In this document: in pieces, positions 18,644-27,290 of the stretch
Numbering within the stretch: position 1 is the first letter of the stretch
How the letters are laid out: the number at the start of each line of letters is the position of its first letter
NCBI RefSeq assembly: GCF_008806955.1
Contig: NZ_CP031727.1
Coordinates: forward strand, 3,858,001-3,922,000
DNA from: Cellvibrio sp. KY-YJ-3
GTDB taxonomy: Bacteria > Pseudomonadota > Gammaproteobacteria > Pseudomonadales > Cellvibrionaceae
DNA length: 64,000 nt
Direction of reading: 5' to 3'
Translations under genes and position numbers: made by a program
Notes under the pieces: generated by a model
Told to the model about the DNA's origin: nothing
Seen by the model: the letters and a program-made list of their open reading frames with translations, nothing else
Databases searched by the model: none

Positions 18644-20752
18644 ATGCGTCACTCTGCTCTGCCTGCTGCACACGCAGTCAAATTTTTACCAAAACCATTG
18701 GCCATGGGTATCGCGCTGGCCTTGAGTGGCGGTGCTTTTATGTCATTGCCTGCTATTGCTGAAACCAAAGCCCTGCCGAAAGTGGTAGTGGTAGGAACGG
18801 AATTGGGCGATGCCGAGCGTCAACCCGGTTCGGTAGGGATTGTCACCGAAGAAGAATTAGAGCTGCGCCAACCCCGCTCGACCGAAGAAGCGCTCCGCTC
18901 CGTACCCGGTGTGGCGATTAAACCCGAAGAAGAAAGCGCGATTGTGGCCAATATTGGTATTCGCGGCTTAAGCTCTGCCGATTACAAAACCCTGATCCTG
19001 GAAGACGGCGTGCCCATCGCACCCGGCCTGTTTGTGGGCAATGGCCGCTACTACAACCCGCGTATCCAGCGCATGGAAACCATTGAAGTATTAAAAGGCG
19101 CTGCTTCATTGCGCTACGGCCCCAGCACCATCGGTGGCGTGATCAACTACATCACCAAACAACCGGAAGACGGCGTGCAGTTAGAAGCCCGCGCTGGCTC
19201 CTTTAATAGCCGCGAAGCGACTCTGGAAGTGGGTGGCTCCAGCCCATCACAAGAGGCCCAGTTTGGCGCGTTCATTACCCATGCCAGCAGCGATGGTTTT
19301 ATGGACAAAGGCTATGACATGACCGATGTGATGATCAAAACCGGCATGGCAATAGGCGATAACCAATGGCTGGGAGTGAAAATCAGCGATTACGATAGCG
19401 AAGCTAATATTTCCTATCGCGGGGTGTTCCTGCAGCAATATAAGGATGGCGTGGACGAAAACCCGGCACCGGACGACTACTTCATCAGCGGCCGCCGTGG
19501 TGTAGATATCAACCACGAGTGGGATATCAACGCCACCACAAAACTCACCACCTTGGTATTTGGCAGCGAAACCTATCGCGATTACTGGCGTTACAACACG
19601 GACAACACCGCTTCTGCCGCTGCTGGTCAGTGGGTTTATCTGGACACACTCAACGGCAACAACCGCAGCTTTGAACGTTTTGGTGTAGATAGCCGCCTCA
19701 AGCTGCAACACCAATTGTTTGGCATCGCCAACGAAGCCGAATTTGGTGTGCGTTTGATGAATGAATCCATGGATGACGTGACTGTCGCCGCTATTCGCGC
19801 TACCCCGCGCACCGGCACCATCAACAAAGACCAGGTTGAATCTGCCGATAGCCTGGCGCTGTATGCGCAAAACCGTTTTGTGGTTACTGAACGGTTAGCG
19901 GTTACTGCTGGTCTGCGCGTGGAAAGTTACGAGCAAACCACTAAAAACAAACGCGCCGCGACCAACAACGAAGCGGACACCTCCAACACCGAAGTGCTGC
20001 CCGGTTTAGGTGCCACCTACCAAATCAACAGCGCCTTGCAAGGTTTCGCCAGTGTTTATGAGGCCTTCTCACCCGCACTGAATGGCGATGCATTGAATGG
20101 TTTGGAAGACCAGAAGTTGGATGCCGAGCGCTCAGTCAACGTTGAGGCTGGCCTGCGCGGCGCGCGCGACAAGGTGAACTACGAGTTAACCTTCTTCCGC
20201 ATGGATTTCGACAACCAGATCATCCCCGCCAACTCCAACAGCCAGTTCCAACGCACCAATGGCGGTGAAACTCTGCACCAAGGTCTTGAAGCGGCACTGG
20301 GCTGGGATTTGGGTGCTGGTTTTAGCCTGAACTCAAGCGCCACCTATATCCCGGATGCAGAATTTGTCGGCGCACGCCGCGATGCCAACGGCAATATCAC
20401 CACCCCCGATGGCAACCGTGTGACCTATGTTCCTGAGTGGGTAACCAACCTGAGCCTGGAATACAAAACCGGCAAACTGCGCACCGCAATCAGCTTGCAC
20501 CACACCGGTGAGCAATACACCGACGTGCAAAATACCAAGCCGATCACCGAAAGCACCTCAGGTTTCTTCACCGGCCAAATCGACAGCTACACCTTGGTGG
20601 ATTTGAATGCTATCTATGAATTCAGCAAAGACCTGAGCATCAGCGCCAGCGCCAAAAACCTGACCGATGAAAACTACATCGCCAGCCTGCGCCAAGGTAT
20701 CTACGTGGGTACTGAACGCACTATCGATGTGGGAGTGAAGTTTAAGTTCTAA
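18644..20752 (+). CDS. TonB-dependent receptor, FecA-like
   Basis: The 702-residue outer membrane receptor starts at ATG 18644 with GAAGGAA upstream. A long signal peptide ends near AIAETK. The plug (about 55-165) contains SVGIVTEEELELRQPRS, NIGIRGLSSADYKTLILEDG and IEVLKGAASLRYGPSTIGGV. The barrel ends in VGVKFKF. The plug and early barrel resemble ferric-dicitrate-type (FecA) receptors, but there is no FecR-binding signalling domain before the plug and no adjacent fecIR. No Fur-like site was found upstream. The ligand is therefore open: iron chelate or another small molecule. It is divergent from the dehydrogenase/DUF1080 pair. Confidence 0.85.
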   Translation: MRHSALPAAHAVKFLPKPLAMGIALALSGGAFMSLPAIAETKALPKVVVVGTELGDAERQPGSVGIVTEEELELRQPRSTEEALRSVPGVAIKPEEESAIVANIGIRGLSSADYKTLILEDGVPIAPGLFVGNGRYYNPRIQRMETIEVLKGAASLRYGPSTIGGVINYITKQPEDGVQLEARAGSFNSREATLEVGGSSPSQEAQFGAFITHASSDGFMDKGYDMTDVMIKTGMAIGDNQWLGVKISDYDSEANISYRGVFLQQYKDGVDENPAPDDYFISGRRGVDINHEWDINATTKLTTLVFGSETYRDYWRYNTDNTASAAAGQWVYLDTLNGNNRSFERFGVDSRLKLQHQLFGIANEAEFGVRLMNESMDDVTVAAIRATPRTGTINKDQVESADSLALYAQNRFVVTERLAVTAGLRVESYEQTTKNKRAATNNEADTSNTEVLPGLGATYQINSALQGFASVYEAFSPALNGDALNGLEDQKLDAERSVNVEAGLRGARDKVNYELTFFRMDFDNQIIPANSNSQFQRTNGGETLHQGLEAALGWDLGAGFSLNSSATYIPDAEFVGARRDANGNITTPDGNRVTYVPEWVTNLSLEYKTGKLRTAISLHHTGEQYTDVQNTKPITESTSGFFTGQIDSYTLVDLNAIYEFSKDLSISASAKNLTDENYIASLRQGIYVGTERTIDVGVKFKF

Positions 20753-20774
20753 CATCAGCACTGCTGCAGTAAAT

Positions 20775-20813
20775 AAAACCAAAAAGCCACCCTCGCGGTG
20801 GCTTTTTGGTTTT
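20775..20813 (+). terminator. Bidirectional-looking rho-independent terminator
   Basis: AAAACCAAAAAGCCACC pairs with GGTGGCTTTTTGGTTTT around a five-base loop. A-tract and T-tract are on either side. It begins 22 bp after the FecA-like receptor stop. Confidence 0.9.
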
Positions 20814-20845
20814 ATGGCTACGCACAAAAGGTTGCCTCATCAAAT

Positions 20846-20860
20846 TGTTATAGTATAACA
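20846..20860. promoter_or_regulatory. Zur box-like palindrome upstream of the zinc receptor
   Basis: TGTTATA-G-TATAACA is a perfect 7-1-7 palindrome and fits the gammaproteobacterial Zur motif core GTTATANNATAAC-like pattern. It lies 70 bp before the ZnuD-like start codon, where a repressor would block the promoter. The palindrome is seen; Zur binding is inferred and agrees with the histidine-rich products of both downstream genes. Confidence 0.75.
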
Positions 20861-20929
20861 TCACCCAAAATTTGAGAGACTCGGTATATCGCGCTGGGTT
20901 GATGGCTTTCTGATGTTGGTGAGGATGTT

Positions 20930-23293
20930 ATGACGATGAACAAATCCCTTTTGTGGTTGGCGCTGGCGGCGGCGAGTGGTTCGGCCTTAGCGCAAGTTGA
21001 AGGTGTGGTGCGTGACCCGGCGGGGATGCCGATTGCGGGGGCGACGATTGAGGTGGTGGGTACCAAAATCCGTACTACCGCGAATGAGCGCGGTGAGTTT
21101 CAGTTGCCGCAGGTGAAGGATAAACACGTCGAGCTGCATGTGCGTGCGCCCGACTACACCCACAGAACCTTGCATGTGCATGAAGGCGATGGCCCGGTGG
21201 AGCTGGTACTCACCAGCACCACGCTGGAAATTGTGAATGTGGTGGGCCTGCCTTGGCATGCGTCCAATATGGAATCGGCCCAGCCGGTGAATGTGCTCGG
21301 CGGCGAGACGTTGCGCGAGCGTCAGGCATCTACTCTGGGTGAAACCCTGAAGCATGAAGTGGGTGTGCATTCCAGCTATTACGGCCCGGTGGCAAGCAGC
21401 CCGATTATTCGCGGCTTGGAAGGCCCACGGGTATTAGTCACCCAAAATGGTTTGGATGCGGGCGATGCCTCCCGTGTTGGCCCCGACCATGCAGTCGCGG
21501 CGGAAGCCTCTACCGCGCGCCAAATTGAAATTCTGCGCGGCCCGGCGACGTTGTTTTACGGCAGTGGCGCGATCGGCGGGGTAGTGAATGTGGTGGATGA
21601 CCGCGTTCCGCAAAGCACCGATACCTTTGGTGAGTGGCGCTTGCAACAGGATTCCGTCGCCGATGACCAACTCGTCTCTGCCAGTGGTAATACCGGCATG
21701 GGCAGTATGGGTTTGCATTTGGATGGTTTCTGGCGCGAGGCGGATAACTACAAAATCCCCGGTGCTGCAGAAGTAGAAACCCACGAAGAGCATGAAGAAG
21801 AAGGCCACGACGAGCACAGCGATGATCGCCTTGCCAACTCCTGGAGCGAAGCCAAGGGTTTTAATGCTGGTGTCAGTCAGGTAATGGATGAAGGATTTGT
21901 TGGCCTGTCCTACGGTTTGTTGGATCGCCAATACGGCATTCCCGGTCATGGCCACGGTGGCGACGAAGAAGTGGACGTGTACGCCGATGTGAAACAACAT
22001 CGCCTGCAGTTTTTGAGCGAGTTGAATCTGGATCACGAATTTTTTAGCGCCAGCAATACACGTTTTGGTTTTACCGATTACGAGCACAGCGAAATCGAAA
22101 ACGGTGAAGTGGGAACAACCTTCCGCAATGAAACCGCTGAAGCGCGCTGGGAATTATTCCATCACCCGATTGCCGAATGGCGCGGCGCATTGAGCCTGCA
22201 TTACAAACACAGCGATTTTGAAGCGATTGGTGAAGAGGCATTCACACCGCCGAGCGAAACCGGAACGCTCGCGCTCGGTTTGATGGAAGAGCGTCACTTT
22301 GGCGATGTGTTAGTGCAGCTCGGTGCACGTATCGAGCAGGTAAAAATTACGGCGGATAATTTGCAGGTTGATCTGAATGAACACGATCACGCCGATGAAG
22401 ATGAGGACGCTGAAGAATACCTGCGCGTATTTTCCATCAACCAGGAAGCAACGCCTTTTAGTGCATCAGCGGGTGTGGTATGGGATTTCACTCCCGGTTA
22501 CAACATCGGTGTTTCTTATACTCACGCCGAACGCACGCCCTCTGCTGCCGAATTATTATCCTTCGGCCCACATATTGGTTCCGGTTTGTACGAAGTGGGT
22601 GCGCTGTTGCAATTAGTGAATGATGAAGACGGCGAATTCCATTTTGATTTAGCGCGCTCCGATTTGGAATTGGAAACCTCTAACAATATCGATATTTCCC
22701 TGCGCAAATTTGAAGGCGATTTTGGTTTTATCCTCAACGCCTTTTACAACCGCATCGGCGATTATTATTACCTCGCCGACACCGGTTTAACCCGTGAAAG
22801 TGGTGATGCGCACGATCATGGCGCGGAAGATGAGCACGATCACAGCAGCGAATTACCGGTGTTTATTTATCAAGCGCGCGATGCCGAACTCTACGGTTTT
22901 GAAACCGAATTTGTGTGGCAATTAGCCGCGCCGTTAAAGCTCAGCCTCACTAGCGATTACATTCGCGCGCAATTAGTGGACGGCGGCGATTTACCGCGCA
23001 TTCCACCGCTGCGTGTGGGCGTGCGTGCAGAATATGAGGTAGGTAACTGGCGCGCGGAATTAAGCAGCCAACATTATTTTGAGCAGGACAACATCGATTC
23101 ATTTGAAACCACTACCGACGCTTACACCCTGGTGGATATGCAAGTGAGTTATGCGCTGAGTGACGGCTTAAAAATTTATGTGAAAGGTAACAACCTCACC
23201 GACGAATACGCGCGCGTCCATGCGTCATTCCTTAAAGACAAAGCTCCCCTGCCCGCACGCTCCTTTGCGCTGGGTGTGAGCGGTAGTTTTTAG
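20930..23293 (+). CDS. znuD: ZnuD-like TonB-dependent zinc receptor with histidine-rich loops
   Basis: The 787-residue outer membrane receptor has a signal peptide (1-21) and a small carboxypeptidase-regulatory-like beta domain (about 23-95; VEGVVRDPAGMPIAGATIEV). The plug (about 115-225) contains SSPIIRGLEGPRVLVTQNGL and LFYGSGAIGGVVNVVDD, and the barrel ends in LGVSGSF. Four acidic His-rich segments sit in probable outer loops: 283-298, 340-345, 484-496 and 624-637. These are expected for metal capture and resemble ZnuD. GAGG lies before the ATG. A perfect Zur-type palindrome lies 70 bp upstream, and a His-rich lipoprotein follows. Zinc is the most likely substrate; another divalent metal cannot be excluded. 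Confidence 0.88.
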   Translation: MTMNKSLLWLALAAASGSALAQVEGVVRDPAGMPIAGATIEVVGTKIRTTANERGEFQLPQVKDKHVELHVRAPDYTHRTLHVHEGDGPVELVLTSTTLEIVNVVGLPWHASNMESAQPVNVLGGETLRERQASTLGETLKHEVGVHSSYYGPVASSPIIRGLEGPRVLVTQNGLDAGDASRVGPDHAVAAEASTARQIEILRGPATLFYGSGAIGGVVNVVDDRVPQSTDTFGEWRLQQDSVADDQLVSASGNTGMGSMGLHLDGFWREADNYKIPGAAEVETHEEHEEEGHDEHSDDRLANSWSEAKGFNAGVSQVMDEGFVGLSYGLLDRQYGIPGHGHGGDEEVDVYADVKQHRLQFLSELNLDHEFFSASNTRFGFTDYEHSEIENGEVGTTFRNETAEARWELFHHPIAEWRGALSLHYKHSDFEAIGEEAFTPPSETGTLALGLMEERHFGDVLVQLGARIEQVKITADNLQVDLNEHDHADEDEDAEEYLRVFSINQEATPFSASAGVVWDFTPGYNIGVSYTHAERTPSAAELLSFGPHIGSGLYEVGALLQLVNDEDGEFHFDLARSDLELETSNNIDISLRKFEGDFGFILNAFYNRIGDYYYLADTGLTRESGDAHDHGAEDEHDHSSELPVFIYQARDAELYGFETEFVWQLAAPLKLSLTSDYIRAQLVDGGDLPRIPPLRVGVRAEYEVGNWRAELSSQHYFEQDNIDSFETTTDAYTLVDMQVSYALSDGLKIYVKGNNLTDEYARVHASFLKDKAPLPARSFALGVSGSF

Positions 23294-23329
23294 CGCTCAC
23301 GCTTCCTAAACCACTGGCTTGAACTCAAG

Positions 23330-23354
23330 CATGCCCGCTAATGCGGGCGTGACG
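23330..23354. repeat. REP-like palindrome
   Basis: GCATGCCCGCTAATGCGGGCGTGACG holds the stem GCCCGC/GCGGGC with a TGACG flank. It lies between the ZnuD-like and AztD-like genes. It resembles the elements at 10462 and 47669 and could modulate mRNA stability between the two genes. Confidence 0.5.
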
Positions 23355-23411
23355 GGACAGCTTTTACCATTAGTTTTTATTTACAGATGAATATTTAAAA
23401 GGGCAATTTAA

Positions 23412-24743
23412 ATGATGAAAAAGAACGCCGTTTCCAGCCTAACGCTAATCATGATCGCCGCCTTGTTGGGCGGCTGTGGTGGCAGCGACACTAAAATAGT
23501 TGAGCGCGAACCCGTGCCCATCGAAGACGATCATGACCATGACGACGACCATGATCACGACGATGAGCTGACGCAAGGCCGTTTGCTGATCAGCGCAAAA
23601 GACCAAGCCAAAGTCAGCATCATCGACATTAAAGAAAAACAATTGCTGGAGGAATTTACCTTCACCGAAGCGCCCAGTGCGATTTACGCCAGCCCAAGTT
23701 ATCGCTACGGTTATGTTATTCAACGCACAGCGGATTTGGTGAATGTGATTGACAGCGGCTTGTCGCAAGAAGATCACGGCGACCATAAAGACGACGTGAT
23801 TGAAGCACCGATGCAAATGAGTTTTAACGCGAATGGTTCGCGCCCAACCCACTTCACCGGCAACCACACCCAATCGGTTATTTTTTACGATGGCAATGCC
23901 ACCACTGCCACACCAGCGAGCGTTGCTGTGTATACCGAAAGCGATATCGCCAACAACACGGCGGGCACGCGTTTGCAATACACCACTCACATGCACGGTG
24001 CTGCACAAGGGCGCGGTGATTATTTAATTTCCACGGTGCGCGATGCCGCAACAGAAAGCACACTGCCCGATCGCGTTGCAGTTTATAAAGCAGAAGCAGG
24101 TGTATTTACTGAGCAAGAAATATTTACCGAAACCTGCCCCGGTTTGCACGGCAGCGCACAAAATGAAAATCAAATCGCCTTTGGTTGCACTGACGGTGTG
24201 TTAGTTATCACCCAAAATGGCGACAACTTTACTGCCGCAAAAATTACCAACCCCACCAGTTTTACCGGCACTACCCGCATTGGCACAGTGCTGGGCGATG
24301 AAGCGCTAGAGCAGTTTGTGGGCATAGCAGCAGGGCAATTTTTTGCACTGGATACAACGGCCGCCAGCATCACCGCCATTAACTGGTTGGACACCAGCCT
24401 TGCTACACCACCCACTGCACTGGCCTATGGTTTTGCCGATGCCGGTGAACTGTTTGTGATTTTGGACAACCAAGGCGGCCTGACCGTTATTCACACCCAT
24501 GATTGGGTCGTGGTGGATCGCCTGCAAGTGATCACCAGCAACATCGCCGCCCTGCCCACGGGCAGCCGCTTTGAACTGGCAATCACACCGGGCCACCATA
24601 TTTATGTGAGCGATCCAATCGCCAACCAAATTAAACAGGTGGATCTGGATTCATTAAATGTGACAGATAGCATCCAGTTGGATTTTGTACCCAACAAATT
24701 TACCTGGCTGGGTATCGCCGAACCCGAGGGTAATCACCACTAA
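23412..24743 (+). CDS. Histidine-rich beta-propeller lipoprotein, AztD-like zinc metallochaperone
   Basis: The 443-residue protein has a lipobox (LLGGC, Cys22). A flexible acidic His stretch follows (41-50, HDHDDDHDHD), then a repeated beta-rich body typical of a propeller (RLLISAKDQAKVSIIDI; YGYVIQRTADLVNVID; GELFVILDNQGGLTVIHTHD). A second short DHGDH segment is at 121-125. Possible metal ligands are His147, His152, His193, His195 and His246 with Cys242. This plan matches AztD, a periplasmic zinc chaperone with a His-rich flap on a propeller, which normally works with the AztABC transporter. No AztABC gene is present here, and the protein looks lipid-anchored. It follows the ZnuD-like gene by 118 bp and ends at a strong terminator. 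The AztD identity is a family-level inference. Confidence 0.75.
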   Translation: MMKKNAVSSLTLIMIAALLGGCGGSDTKIVEREPVPIEDDHDHDDDHDHDDELTQGRLLISAKDQAKVSIIDIKEKQLLEEFTFTEAPSAIYASPSYRYGYVIQRTADLVNVIDSGLSQEDHGDHKDDVIEAPMQMSFNANGSRPTHFTGNHTQSVIFYDGNATTATPASVAVYTESDIANNTAGTRLQYTTHMHGAAQGRGDYLISTVRDAATESTLPDRVAVYKAEAGVFTEQEIFTETCPGLHGSAQNENQIAFGCTDGVLVITQNGDNFTAAKITNPTSFTGTTRIGTVLGDEALEQFVGIAAGQFFALDTTAASITAINWLDTSLATPPTALAYGFADAGELFVILDNQGGLTVIHTHDWVVVDRLQVITSNIAALPTGSRFELAITPGHHIYVSDPIANQIKQVDLDSLNVTDSIQLDFVPNKFTWLGIAEPEGNHH

Positions 24744-24782
24744 CGTGAACCACGCCTAACCCCTCAGGGGTTCACGCCTTGC

Positions 24783-24811
24783 AGCGGTGCCTTTTGGCAC
24801 CGCTTTTTTTT
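24783..24811 (+). terminator. Rho-independent terminator of the zinc unit
   Basis: AGCGGTGCC-TTTT-GGCACCGCT is followed by eight T residues, 40 bp after the lipoprotein stop codon. Confidence 0.9.
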
Positions 24812-24986
24812 GCCCACGCACAGCCACAATCCCCAGAGTTTTTCAGCCGGTTTCATTGCAGTAAGTTAATTTTCATCCACACTCAACTTTTAGAGGGCGG
24901 GCGACGTGCTGACACTGAATGTGCGATAACACCGCCGCAACACAGGAACATCATCTGAGTGCCGTTGGAATGAAAGGAGTTTGGCT

Positions 24987-27290
24987 ATGATCGGTCGCAC
25001 CAACAAAACCTTTAAACGCCATGTGCTGGTGGTTGAAGATCAGCTGGCTAATTTGGATAGCACGCGCGGCCGTGCCTTGCATGATTTGGTGAGCGAATTC
25101 CAACAGCGGCAAGTAGAGCTGGTGCAAGCGCGCTCCTATGATGACGGCCATGCAGCCATTATTTCGGATGCGGGTTTTCACTGCATTTTTGTGGATTGGA
25201 CCCTGGGCGACAACGAAGCGGAGAGCCATGCTGAAGTGATGGAGCTACTGCGCACCATTCGCCAACGCAACGCCAATGTGCCCATCTTTTTAATGGCGGA
25301 TCGCGCCGCTAAACAAACTCTGACCGTGGAAGCCATGGAGCTGGCCGATGAATTTGTATGGACACTGGAGGACACTGCCCCCTTTATCGTGGGCCGTGCG
25401 CTGGCTGCAGTGGATCGCTACCTGGATAACCTCTTACCGCCCTTTACCGACGCCCTGTTGCGCTACAGCCAAAAAGACGAACACTCCTGGGCAGCGCCCG
25501 GCCACCAAGGCGGCATTGCTTTTACCAAGTCAGCAGTAGGCCGGGTATTTTTTGATTTTTTTGGCGAGAATTTATTTCGCACCGATGGCGGCATAGAGCG
25601 CGGCAGCCTCGGTTCGGTGCTCGACCATACCGGCCCGGTAGAGGCATCGGAAAAATTTGCCGCACGGGTATTTGGTGCCCATGAATCCTACGCGGTACTC
25701 AATGGCACCTCCGGCTCCAATCGCGCCATTTTTATGGCCTGCGTCGGTGAAAACCAGTTTGCCCTGTGCGATCGCAATTGCCACAAATCTATTGAGCAGG
25801 GGCTGGTATTGTCAGGCGGTATTCCGGTGTATTTCACCCCCACCCGCAATCGCTACGGCATCATTGGGCCAATCCCGGCCGATAGGTTCAACCCCCATGC
25901 CGTAGCCCAAGCGATTCAGCAGCACCCGCTGCACGCGCAGGCCAGCAGCGACAAACCCGTCTACGCCGTAGTCACCAACTGTACCTACGACGGCATGTGC
26001 CTGGATGCCGCTCGCGCCGAGGCGGTGCTCGCGCAGTCGGTAGACCGTATTCATTTTGATGAAGCCTGGTATGGCTATGCGCGCTTCAACCCTATGTACG
26101 AAGGCCGCTATGCCATGCGTGGCGACCCGCGCGACCACACCGAACCGGCGCCCACTGTTTTTGCCACCCACTCCACTCACAAGCTGCTCGCGGCGCTGTC
26201 GCAATCCTCCTATATTCATGTGCGCAATGGCCGCAACCCTATCGAACACAGCCGTTTTAATGAATCGTTTGTGATTCAGGCGACAACATCGCCGCTCTAT
26301 ACGCTGTTTGCCTCTAATGAAATTGGCGCCGCGATGATGGAGGGCAGCAGCGGCTATAGCCTGACGCAGGATGTAATTCGCGAAGCAGTGGATTTCCGTC
26401 AGGCGCTGGCACGGGCGCACCGGGAGTTTGCGCAAAAAGGCGATTGGTTTTTTCAGCCCTGGAACTCACCGGAAATTCGCGACGCACAAAGCGGAAAATG
26501 GGTTGCTTTTGCCGATGCCGACCCGGAACAACTGGCCACTGACCCAAGCTGCTGGGTACTGGAACCAGGCGCGGCCTGGCACGGTTTTGGCGGTCTGGAA
26601 AAACACTGGTGCCTACTCGACCCGATGAAAGCCGGCATTATGGTGCCGGGCATGGGGCTGGATGGGCAGATGGAAGCGGTGGGCATTCCCGCCCCCGTGT
26701 TAAGCGCGTTTCTTTATCGCAACAATATTATTCCCTCGCGCACCACCGATTTTATGGTGCTCTGCCTGTTCAGCATCGGCATTACCAAAGGCAAGTGGGG
26801 CACCTTGATCAACGTGCTGCTCGCCTTCAAACGCCACTACGACAACAACACTCTGCTGGAGCAGGTATTACCAGACTTGGTGGATTTAGCCCCCGCCCGC
26901 TACCGCGCCATGGGTTTACAAGACTTGGCCACCGAAATGTTCAACTACATGCGCACCAGCCACATGGATGCATTACAGGCCGAAGCATTTAGCAACTTGC
27001 CACAAATTGCCTGCACGCCGCGCAAAGCGTTTCAACAACTGCAAGCGGGTGCGGCGGAGTTACTGCCGCTGGTACAAACGGCCAACCGCGTTACCGGTGT
27101 GGGCATCATGCCCTATCCACCGGGTATTCCCATTGTCATGCCCGGTGAAAACCTCGGCCCACTCGACGGCCCTTGGCTGAGTTACATCACCGCCCTGCAG
27201 GATTGGAGCAAACGCTTTCCGGGCTTTGAAAAAGAAGTTGAAGGCGCAGTACACAAAGACGACGGCTATCATTTTTGGTGTTTGAAATAA
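24987..27290 (+). CDS. Biodegradative-type Orn/Lys/Arg decarboxylase, AdiA-like
   Basis: The cytoplasmic PLP enzyme removes CO2 from a basic amino acid, most likely arginine. I chose ATG 24987 (AAAGGAG seven bases upstream) over an upstream TTG, giving 767 residues. An N-terminal receiver-like wing domain (about 8-140) is followed by the PLP core with NGTSGSNRAIF, DRNCHKSIEQGL, HFDEAWYGY and the Schiff-base Lys399 in HSTHKLLAALSQ. A C-terminal domain completes the fold. Length and the DRNCHKSIEQGL...NRYGIIGP pattern are closer to AdiA than to lysine or ornithine enzymes. No amino acid/agmatine antiporter gene is adjacent, so a role in acid resistance is unproven and polyamine supply is an alternative. 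Confidence 0.9.
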   Translation: MIGRTNKTFKRHVLVVEDQLANLDSTRGRALHDLVSEFQQRQVELVQARSYDDGHAAIISDAGFHCIFVDWTLGDNEAESHAEVMELLRTIRQRNANVPIFLMADRAAKQTLTVEAMELADEFVWTLEDTAPFIVGRALAAVDRYLDNLLPPFTDALLRYSQKDEHSWAAPGHQGGIAFTKSAVGRVFFDFFGENLFRTDGGIERGSLGSVLDHTGPVEASEKFAARVFGAHESYAVLNGTSGSNRAIFMACVGENQFALCDRNCHKSIEQGLVLSGGIPVYFTPTRNRYGIIGPIPADRFNPHAVAQAIQQHPLHAQASSDKPVYAVVTNCTYDGMCLDAARAEAVLAQSVDRIHFDEAWYGYARFNPMYEGRYAMRGDPRDHTEPAPTVFATHSTHKLLAALSQSSYIHVRNGRNPIEHSRFNESFVIQATTSPLYTLFASNEIGAAMMEGSSGYSLTQDVIREAVDFRQALARAHREFAQKGDWFFQPWNSPEIRDAQSGKWVAFADADPEQLATDPSCWVLEPGAAWHGFGGLEKHWCLLDPMKAGIMVPGMGLDGQMEAVGIPAPVLSAFLYRNNIIPSRTTDFMVLCLFSIGITKGKWGTLINVLLAFKRHYDNNTLLEQVLPDLVDLAPARYRAMGLQDLATEMFNYMRTSHMDALQAEAFSNLPQIACTPRKAFQQLQAGAAELLPLVQTANRVTGVGIMPYPPGIPIVMPGENLGPLDGPWLSYITALQDWSKRFPGFEKEVEGAVHKDDGYHFWCLK

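Follow-up and report, generated by a model that had tools for sequence, protein, structure and literature searches.

A ZnuD-like receptor gene and a lipid-anchored AztD-like protein gene behind a Zur-type operator in Cellvibrio sp. KY-YJ-3, a candidate zinc import unit

To our knowledge, the passage of zinc across the periplasm after its release from a TonB-dependent receptor is poorly understood. The closest described systems to the locus studied here are the zinc receptor ZnuD of Neisseria meningitidis, the chaperone AztD of AztABCD, and the Zur regulon of Acinetobacter baumannii, in which zigA is listed (in the accessible part of PMC6103462). According to the portion of PMC6689063 available to us, Paracoccus denitrificans AztD gives zinc to AztC and not to ZnuA, and only nearly half of AztD genes are tied to a ZnuA-family protein. 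The original prediction for this locus took AztD proteins to be known as soluble partners, a description that stands in part and is incomplete, as the same portion of that source reports the Gram-positive homologues to be extracellular lipoproteins. The gammaproteobacterial Zur box consensus is quoted as GAAATGTTATANTATAACATTTC in the part of PMC2706843 that we could consult.

We analyzed a 64-kb window of the genome (64,000 nucleotides of contig NZ_CP031727.1). On its forward strand, a single open reading frame at 20930..23293 encodes a ZnuD-like TonB-dependent zinc receptor of 787 amino acids (aa), and the next gene, at 23412..24743, encodes a predicted lipid-anchored AztD-like zinc chaperone of 443 aa. 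An intrinsic terminator at 24783..24804 on the same strand, with a 9-pair stem (7 GC pairs), a loop of 4, and a following T run, closes the unit, as had been predicted. The FecA-like receptor gene at 18644-20752 was considered as a further member but is not supported: downstream of it, at 20781-20807, a hairpin trailed by T residues was recognized by eye and not listed by the terminator scan, and the operator lies only beyond that hairpin. No sigma-70-like promoter was found by scan in 20740-24990. A two-gene unit of receptor and lipoprotein genes is supported. The 118-nt gap between them folds at -31.5 kcal/mol (z -2.04) and contains a hairpin at 23329..23351 (forward strand), and the terminator scan found no terminator-like site there; our guess is that this hairpin might tune the relative expression of the two genes.

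Upstream of the receptor gene, at 20846..20860 and 69 nt from its ATG, lies the perfect 7-1-7 palindrome TGTTATAGTATAACA (TGTTATA-G-TATAACA), a Zur-type operator with zero mismatches that places the box core TGTTATAnTATAACA, derived from the consensus as quoted in the accessible part of PMC2706843, in a zinc-gene promoter. It is the only match at ≤3 mismatches in the window, where shuffled sequence gives 1.96 such matches, so that the box count alone is not significant. Across the 4.49-Mb genome, ≤3-mismatch boxes numbered 76 per strand and 221 in the reversed control; as these counts are uninformative, we relied on boxes with 0-1 mismatch. On that basis the predicted palindrome is confirmed as the sole perfect match in the genome, and it is kept in relatives: a Zur-type box precedes 72/88 testable homologous pairs (control pattern, 0/88) and 10 of 13 other lipoprotein loci (control pattern, none), and is absent from the scanned stretch in 16/88 pairs. 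At two loci (L058 and L079), a one-mismatch box falls inside an open reading frame that had been given too early a start. A one-mismatch box also stands ahead of the gene for a ZigA GTPase in this genome (707 bits; cut-off, 600). The box that the original prediction proposed to seek at znuABC has a counterpart between zur and znuA, but with 3 mismatches, level with abundant chance matches. From this sequence pattern, control of the two-gene unit by Zur appears highly probable.

The receptor consists of a carboxypeptidase-regulatory-like N-terminal extension (residues 22-86), a plug (113-218), and then the barrel. Its best structure match by sequence is ZnuD (4rdr), and although the pLDDT of its model is only 72, a Foldseek search of the PDB placed ZnuD at ranks 1-4 (4rdt/4rdr/4rvw), followed by the copper receptor OprC. 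In the accessible part of the ZnuD paper the first ligand is printed as D90; once the numbering is shifted by 14, position 90 turns out to be Thr and position 99 Asp, so we took D99 as the first ligand. The high-affinity ligands D99, H100, E340, and H499 then correspond to receptor residues D186, H187, E388, and H548, which are invariant in 42/42 sequences. The ZnuD profile NF038289 matches with an E value of 6.7e-112 and 375.3 bits, below its 950-bit naming cut-off, and we consider the predicted ZnuD-like identity upheld at that level. Four acidic stretches bear His residues, at 285-299 (4 His), 339-347 (2), 483-496 (2), and 626-640 (4). Because three of them coincide with segments modeled at low confidence (280-297, 484-496, and 626-639), while 339-347 sits between two predicted strands, the prediction of four His-rich loops holds, though two carry only two His.

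The lipoprotein is laid out as a signal peptide, a lipobox (LGGC, with Cys22), a His/Asp stretch at 40-52, a beta-propeller at about 53-437, and a C-terminal His-His. The comparison with AztD that had been proposed recovered the AztD beta-propeller fold, and the body is all-beta in the predicted structure. Three His form site 1 (H147, H195, and H246 by alignment to 6ck1), invariant in 34/34 and 58/58 homologues. Site 2 of AztD, a His-x-x-His-x-Asp flap plus a C-terminal His, has its equivalent in the flap EDHGDHKDD at 120-128, where H122 and H125 are invariant (58/58); residue 127 is Asp here, an Asp shared by 14 of the 58 homologues, whereas 44 have His. By sequence, a His occurs within the last six residues in 57/58. 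At least 3 His within 60 residues after the lipid Cys were seen in 40/58, so this stretch is not universal. Family matches to generic YncE/WD40 propellers, a class we rejected, were weak, and AztD stood far above other propellers by fold score. Against the AztD profile NF038015 the lipoprotein scored 119.7 bits, below the 400-bit naming cut-off; three relatives scored 84.5, 95.6, and 108.8, and the control Sinorhizobium AztD 409.8. Since both proteins fall below NCBIfam naming cut-offs, we call them "-like" branches; that they belong to the ZnuD-like and AztD-like superfamilies, respectively, is in our judgment nearly certain.

The lipobox pattern and the +2 sorting rule were established in enterobacteria. 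A lipobox is present in 105/106 distinct homologues, the exception being an N-terminally cut fragment, and the residue after the lipid Cys is Gly in 101 of the 105 (as here), Asp in 3, and Asn in 1. We rejected a soluble periplasmic protein on account of the lipobox, and the lipobox Cys with no Asp at +2 marks the protein, by sequence, as a predicted outer-membrane lipoprotein. Fold, both zinc sites, and Cys22 thus bear out the prediction of a putatively lipid-anchored AztD-like protein with flap and propeller.

The genome also has znuA and zur-znuC-znuB away from this locus, and the module is therefore not self-contained, as it had been described; "without the ABC genes" is correct at the locus and fails genome-wide. 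Against the Zur model, the homologue encoded beside znuCB reaches 115 bits (cut-off, 167). One PF01297 protein was found in this genome, with 229 bits to the ZnuA model (cut-off, 268) and 115 to the AztC model (cut-off, 350); with no AztC over the cut-off, the partner AztC and aztABC genes of AztABCD were not recovered. AztC exceeded the cut-off in 0/34 lipoprotein-bearing genomes of the family, and in no control genome either; in two family genomes (G043 and G060), another binding protein scores about 205 bits (cut-off, 350). ZinT had no match in this genome, and in the ZrgA search the control gave no match anywhere. The ZinT and ZrgA folds are not known to be related to that of AztD.

The lipoprotein branch occurs at 103 distinct loci, and many aquatic bacteria carry the pair. 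Of 80 lipoprotein loci recovered by scanning named genomes, 69 have a ZnuD-like gene immediately upstream, so the arrangement, which had been put forward as a novelty, is widespread across many genera and not peculiar to this genome. Same-family relatives have it directly upstream in 31/33 (two of these in pieces). Among 120 family genomes, 34 have the lipoprotein and 92 the receptor; all 34 also have the receptor, as do 11/11 exceptional genomes of the named-genome set. The lipoprotein had no match in 58/92 receptor-bearing family genomes, and in nine Pseudoalteromonas loci and one Colwellia locus the receptor gene is not beside it; coupling is thus not obligatory. The receptor match extends into the extra N-terminal domain in 33/34 lipoprotein-bearing family genomes and in 25/57 determinable receptor-bearing genomes without the lipoprotein (of the 58, one was not assessable), an association that is suggestive only, as the genomes are related. 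Many of the other loci have ZigA-like, DUF1826, and Zur-like genes in the vicinity of the pair. A class-wide search found the branch in 4/369 genomes, this one included, and it is therefore rare in that sample.

A plasmid collection contained 148 matching records, most frequently from Sinorhizobium (69). Of three inspected records, one holds a Sinorhizobium AztD without adjoining ABC genes, one a Thermus homologue that adjoins a metal ABC binding protein, and the third is an unannotated Pseudoalteromonas record.

We propose that, under zinc scarcity, Zur would leave the operator. By homology, the receptor would bind zinc via its outside His-bearing loops and the conserved D-H-E-H site, and TonB energy would bring it through the receptor into the periplasm. 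The AztD-like propeller, presumably held by its lipid on the periplasmic side of the outer membrane, may catch zinc at its two conserved sites and pass it on; the likeliest acceptor would be the single ZnuA-type binding protein, with ZnuBC carrying out the import. The tether would keep the catcher where zinc emerges. We favor this reading, of an inner-face, receptor-fed zinc chaperone in a Zur-repressed two-gene import unit, as reasonably probable. As P. denitrificans AztD does not feed ZnuA, delivery to ZnuA here would need a different specificity. It is conceivable, if somewhat doubtful, that zinc is never free, with receptor and lipoprotein in a standing complex docked via the extra N-terminal domain of the receptor; were the lipoprotein to face outward, the two would instead make a surface pair like TbpAB or SusCD.

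Alternatively, the lipoprotein might be a periplasmic zinc buffer or store within the zinc-starvation response, taking no zinc straight from the receptor, with adjacency reflecting shared control. The lipoprotein genes apart from the receptor in Pseudoalteromonas and Colwellia, mostly with their own box, and the same-type receptors without a lipoprotein are consistent with this, as is a P. denitrificans aztD knockout that, in the available portion of PMC6689063, pointed to periplasmic zinc accumulation, not growth. Order and adjacency kept in 31/33 and 69/80 loci across many genera, and receptor co-occurrence in 34/34 and 11/11 genomes, argue against it, and we hold it to be unlikely.

An outward-facing lipoprotein that captures zinc at the cell exterior and supplies it to the receptor, like transferrin-binding or SusCD lipoproteins, would fit the gene order of receptor then lipoprotein. 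SusC-type receptors bear a carboxypeptidase-regulatory-like domain, as does this receptor, whose residues 22-141 weakly match the SusC/RagA model (E 1.3e-6). The extracellular Gram-positive homologues also favor such a co-receptor, whereas the AztD proteins of solved structure that come nearest in fold are described as periplasmic in Gram-negatives (both from the accessible part of PMC6689063); we regard it as improbable. His-rich sites bind several metals, and the rank of OprC directly after ZnuD would suit a cargo of another transition metal or a metal complex, but the Zur-type box, the ZigA- and Zur-like neighbors, and the conservation of ligand positions from ZnuD and from the two AztD sites make such a cargo very improbable. 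If the favored reading of a receptor-fed chaperone is true, the operon of receptor and tethered chaperone offers a concrete model of a zinc relay and extends AztD-like proteins to a setting where ZnuA or another acceptor must be served. It also gives a function hypothesis for a branch whose tested members score far below naming thresholds.

AztD without adjacent ABC genes is not new in itself, as the Sinorhizobium AztD, which exceeds the naming cut-off, likewise has none nearby. In a literature thin in subscription journals, we found no paper naming both AztD and ZnuD, and our literature search found none linking ZnuD to a propeller-type zinc lipoprotein. The accessible parts of papers on AztD and TonB do not describe the receptor-lipoprotein pair. 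Searches on Zur in Alteromonadales, or on chaperone with receptor and lipoprotein, returned only unrelated work, and none of the matches listed for Cellvibrio and Zur was relevant by title.

Taken together, the locus combines known parts in a widespread variant, in which an AztD-like protein is bound to the membrane and, in most cases, coupled to ZnuD. The lipoprotein shares 21-24% identity in structural alignment with AztD of P. denitrificans (6ck1) and Citrobacter koseri (6cmk/6n01), and it differs from AztD of AztABCD in being predicted to be lipid-anchored in a Gram-negative bacterium, usually beside a ZnuD-like receptor gene. The proposed periplasmic handover to ZnuA resembles the role of ZinT, as described in the available portion of PMC6689063. 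With the A. baumannii Zur regulon (znuD, zigA, znuA, and zurznuCB), the locus and genome share the box consensus and the znuA / zur-znuC-znuB layout (PMC3516566, accessible part), whereas the available parts of PMC3516566 and PMC6103462 name no AztD-like protein. The receptor shares with N. meningitidis ZnuD (4rdr/4rdt/4rvw) the fold and the four high-affinity ligand positions; it differs in a carboxypeptidase-regulatory-like domain outside the 4rdr match, in four His-bearing loops, and in having a lipoprotein gene as its partner.

The ZnuD-like receptor and the AztD-like lipoprotein are encoded as a two-gene unit in the window, which spans 3858001-3922000 of the 4.49-Mb, single-contig Cellvibrio sp. 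KY-YJ-3 genome. A perfect Zur-type palindrome, TGTTATA-G-TATAACA (20846-20860), is followed by the receptor gene (20930-23293, plus strand, 787 aa), the lipoprotein gene (23412-24743, same strand, 443 aa), and, 3' of the latter, a terminator identified by terminator scan (24783-24804), an arrangement in which both the elements and the order of the original prediction were recovered. The 118-nt gap between the genes has stable predicted folding (z -2.04) and gave no terminator-like site in the terminator scan. It contains a GC-rich hairpin lacking a T run (23329-23351), which may set the receptor:chaperone ratio. Upstream of the box lies a separate siderophore/FecA-like TonB receptor gene (18644-20752) with its own hairpin (20781-20807); 3' of the terminator is an Orn/Lys/Arg decarboxylase gene (PF01276, 24990-27290), for which no zinc connection was seen.

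The top NCBIfam family for the receptor was ZnuD (E = 6.7e-112; 375 bits, under the 950-bit cut-off), and Neisseria ZnuD was the closest solved structure both by sequence and by fold (fold ranks 1-4), with fold details rough because the model has a pLDDT of 72. PMC4557270 describes the Neisseria zinc site as D90/H100/E340/H499. Provided that the printed D90 is D99, these ligands align with receptor D186, H187, E388, and H548, each invariant in all 42 aligned homologues. H340 and H342 are equally invariant and correspond to H241 and H243 in a Neisseria metal cluster. The lipoprotein has a lipobox and an AztD-like fold. Cys 242 and Cys 259 of its propeller are invariant across both alignments (34/34 in A1 and 58/58 in A2) and, judging from sequence, perhaps form a disulphide.

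The lipoprotein was present in 34 of the 120 family-sample genomes. Among the 33 family loci fetched besides the window's own, a ZnuD-like gene lay immediately 5' in 31 (fragmented in L054 and L085), and the two genomes without an adjoining receptor gene (G056 and G012) carried one elsewhere. A named-genome scan found 200 relatives, with the same adjacency in 69 of the 80 loci examined (the best 80 of 200); genera included Cellvibrio, Rheinheimera, Alishewanella, Arsukibacterium, Marinimicrobium, Zhongshania, Pseudoalteromonas, Colwellia, Catenovulum, and Alteromonas. Of the 11 exceptions, nine were Pseudoalteromonas loci without an adjoining receptor gene (L120, L126, L136, L144, L145, L147, L148, L152, and L167; L136 was judged on only ~500 nt of upstream sequence) and one was from Colwellia echini (L158). 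In the last, from Lampropedia (L165), a receptor-like gene lies 3' rather than 5'. All 11 exception genomes had a ZnuD-like match at E ≤ 1e-30, the weakest being Lampropedia (5.6e-42). The converse fails, as a lipoprotein match was absent from 58 of 92 receptor-bearing family genomes. Downstream ORFs listed for 17 receptors without an adjoining lipoprotein gene, inspected by eye, included four zur-like and four COG0523 GTPase-like genes and no substitute lipoprotein.

With duplicates removed, the two overlapping samples comprised 90 pairs and 13 other loci, 103 in all. We scanned these for a Zur-type box in a stretch running from 300 nt before the called start to 130 nt after it; PMC2706843 gives GAAATGTTATANTATAACATTTC as the gammaproteobacterial Zur box. 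With up to two mismatches, a box was found in 72 of the 88 pairs with enough sequence (two were omitted), with at most one mismatch in 49 and perfect in 11, and in 10 of the 13 other loci; a reversed-pattern control gave 0/88 and 0/13. The Pseudoalteromonas loci without an adjoining receptor had two boxes just 5' in eight cases and one in L167. This conserved operator suggests that Zur would repress the two-gene unit. The genome encodes two FUR-family proteins, and the one adjoining znuCB matches the Zur model at 115 bits (cut-off, 167).

Boxes with at most one mismatch numbered three in the genome. Besides that of the window receptor, one (G000:C1:2098282-2098296; L017:8283-8297) is 5' of a ZigA GTPase (over cut-off) and then a DUF1826 gene; the called ORF overlaps the box, the likely ATG start being ~21 nt 3' of it. 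Other genomes repeatedly carry DUF1826-like genes close to the receptor-lipoprotein pair, making DUF1826 a candidate zinc-starvation protein. The third (G000:C1:3823959-3823973; L018:7960-7974), outside the window, lies ~13 nt ahead of the earliest start available to a siderophore-type TonB receptor of 708 aa. This protein scores 313 bits against TIGR01783, above the cut-off, and is a candidate Zur-regulated zincophore receptor. A search for the Zur box at znuABC had also been suggested; the znuA/zur-znuC-znuB locus (~725-728 kb) has only a three-mismatch site.

Zinc is the probable cargo, and the lipoprotein would be tethered at the inner face in a relay running from receptor to chaperone to ZnuA. 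ZnuA would be the likeliest acceptor of any zinc that the lipoprotein delivers, since the genome encodes a single ZnuA-family protein, AztC exceeded its cut-off in 0 of 34 lipoprotein-bearing genomes (a search run without a positive control), and ZinT had no match in the Cellvibrio sp. KY-YJ-3 genome. The single ZnuA-family protein is itself nearer ZnuA than AztC (229 versus 115 bits, both under cut-off). Against ZnuA as acceptor, PMC6689063 reports that in P. denitrificans ZnuA is not supplied by AztD. Two family genomes, G043 and G060, encode a second binding protein that scores ~205 bits against the AztC model, whose cut-off is 350, and may be an AztC-like partner.

AztD genes that lack ABC neighbours are not new in themselves, one such gene being present in Sinorhizobium. 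Our literature search found no paper treating AztD and ZnuD together; we regard the pair as known parts whose coupling is unreported as far as that search reaches. The AztD survey in PMC6689063 required E below 1e-20 to P. denitrificans AztD, so the AztD-like branch seen here may lie outside it. The neighbours described there are ZnuA-family, ABC, Fur, and CobW genes, whereas the AztD-like lipoprotein is usually adjoined by a ZnuD-like gene. The receptor, in turn, shares its zinc-site ligand positions with Neisseria ZnuD but has a carboxypeptidase-regulatory-like domain (residues 22-86) beyond the region matching 4rdr.
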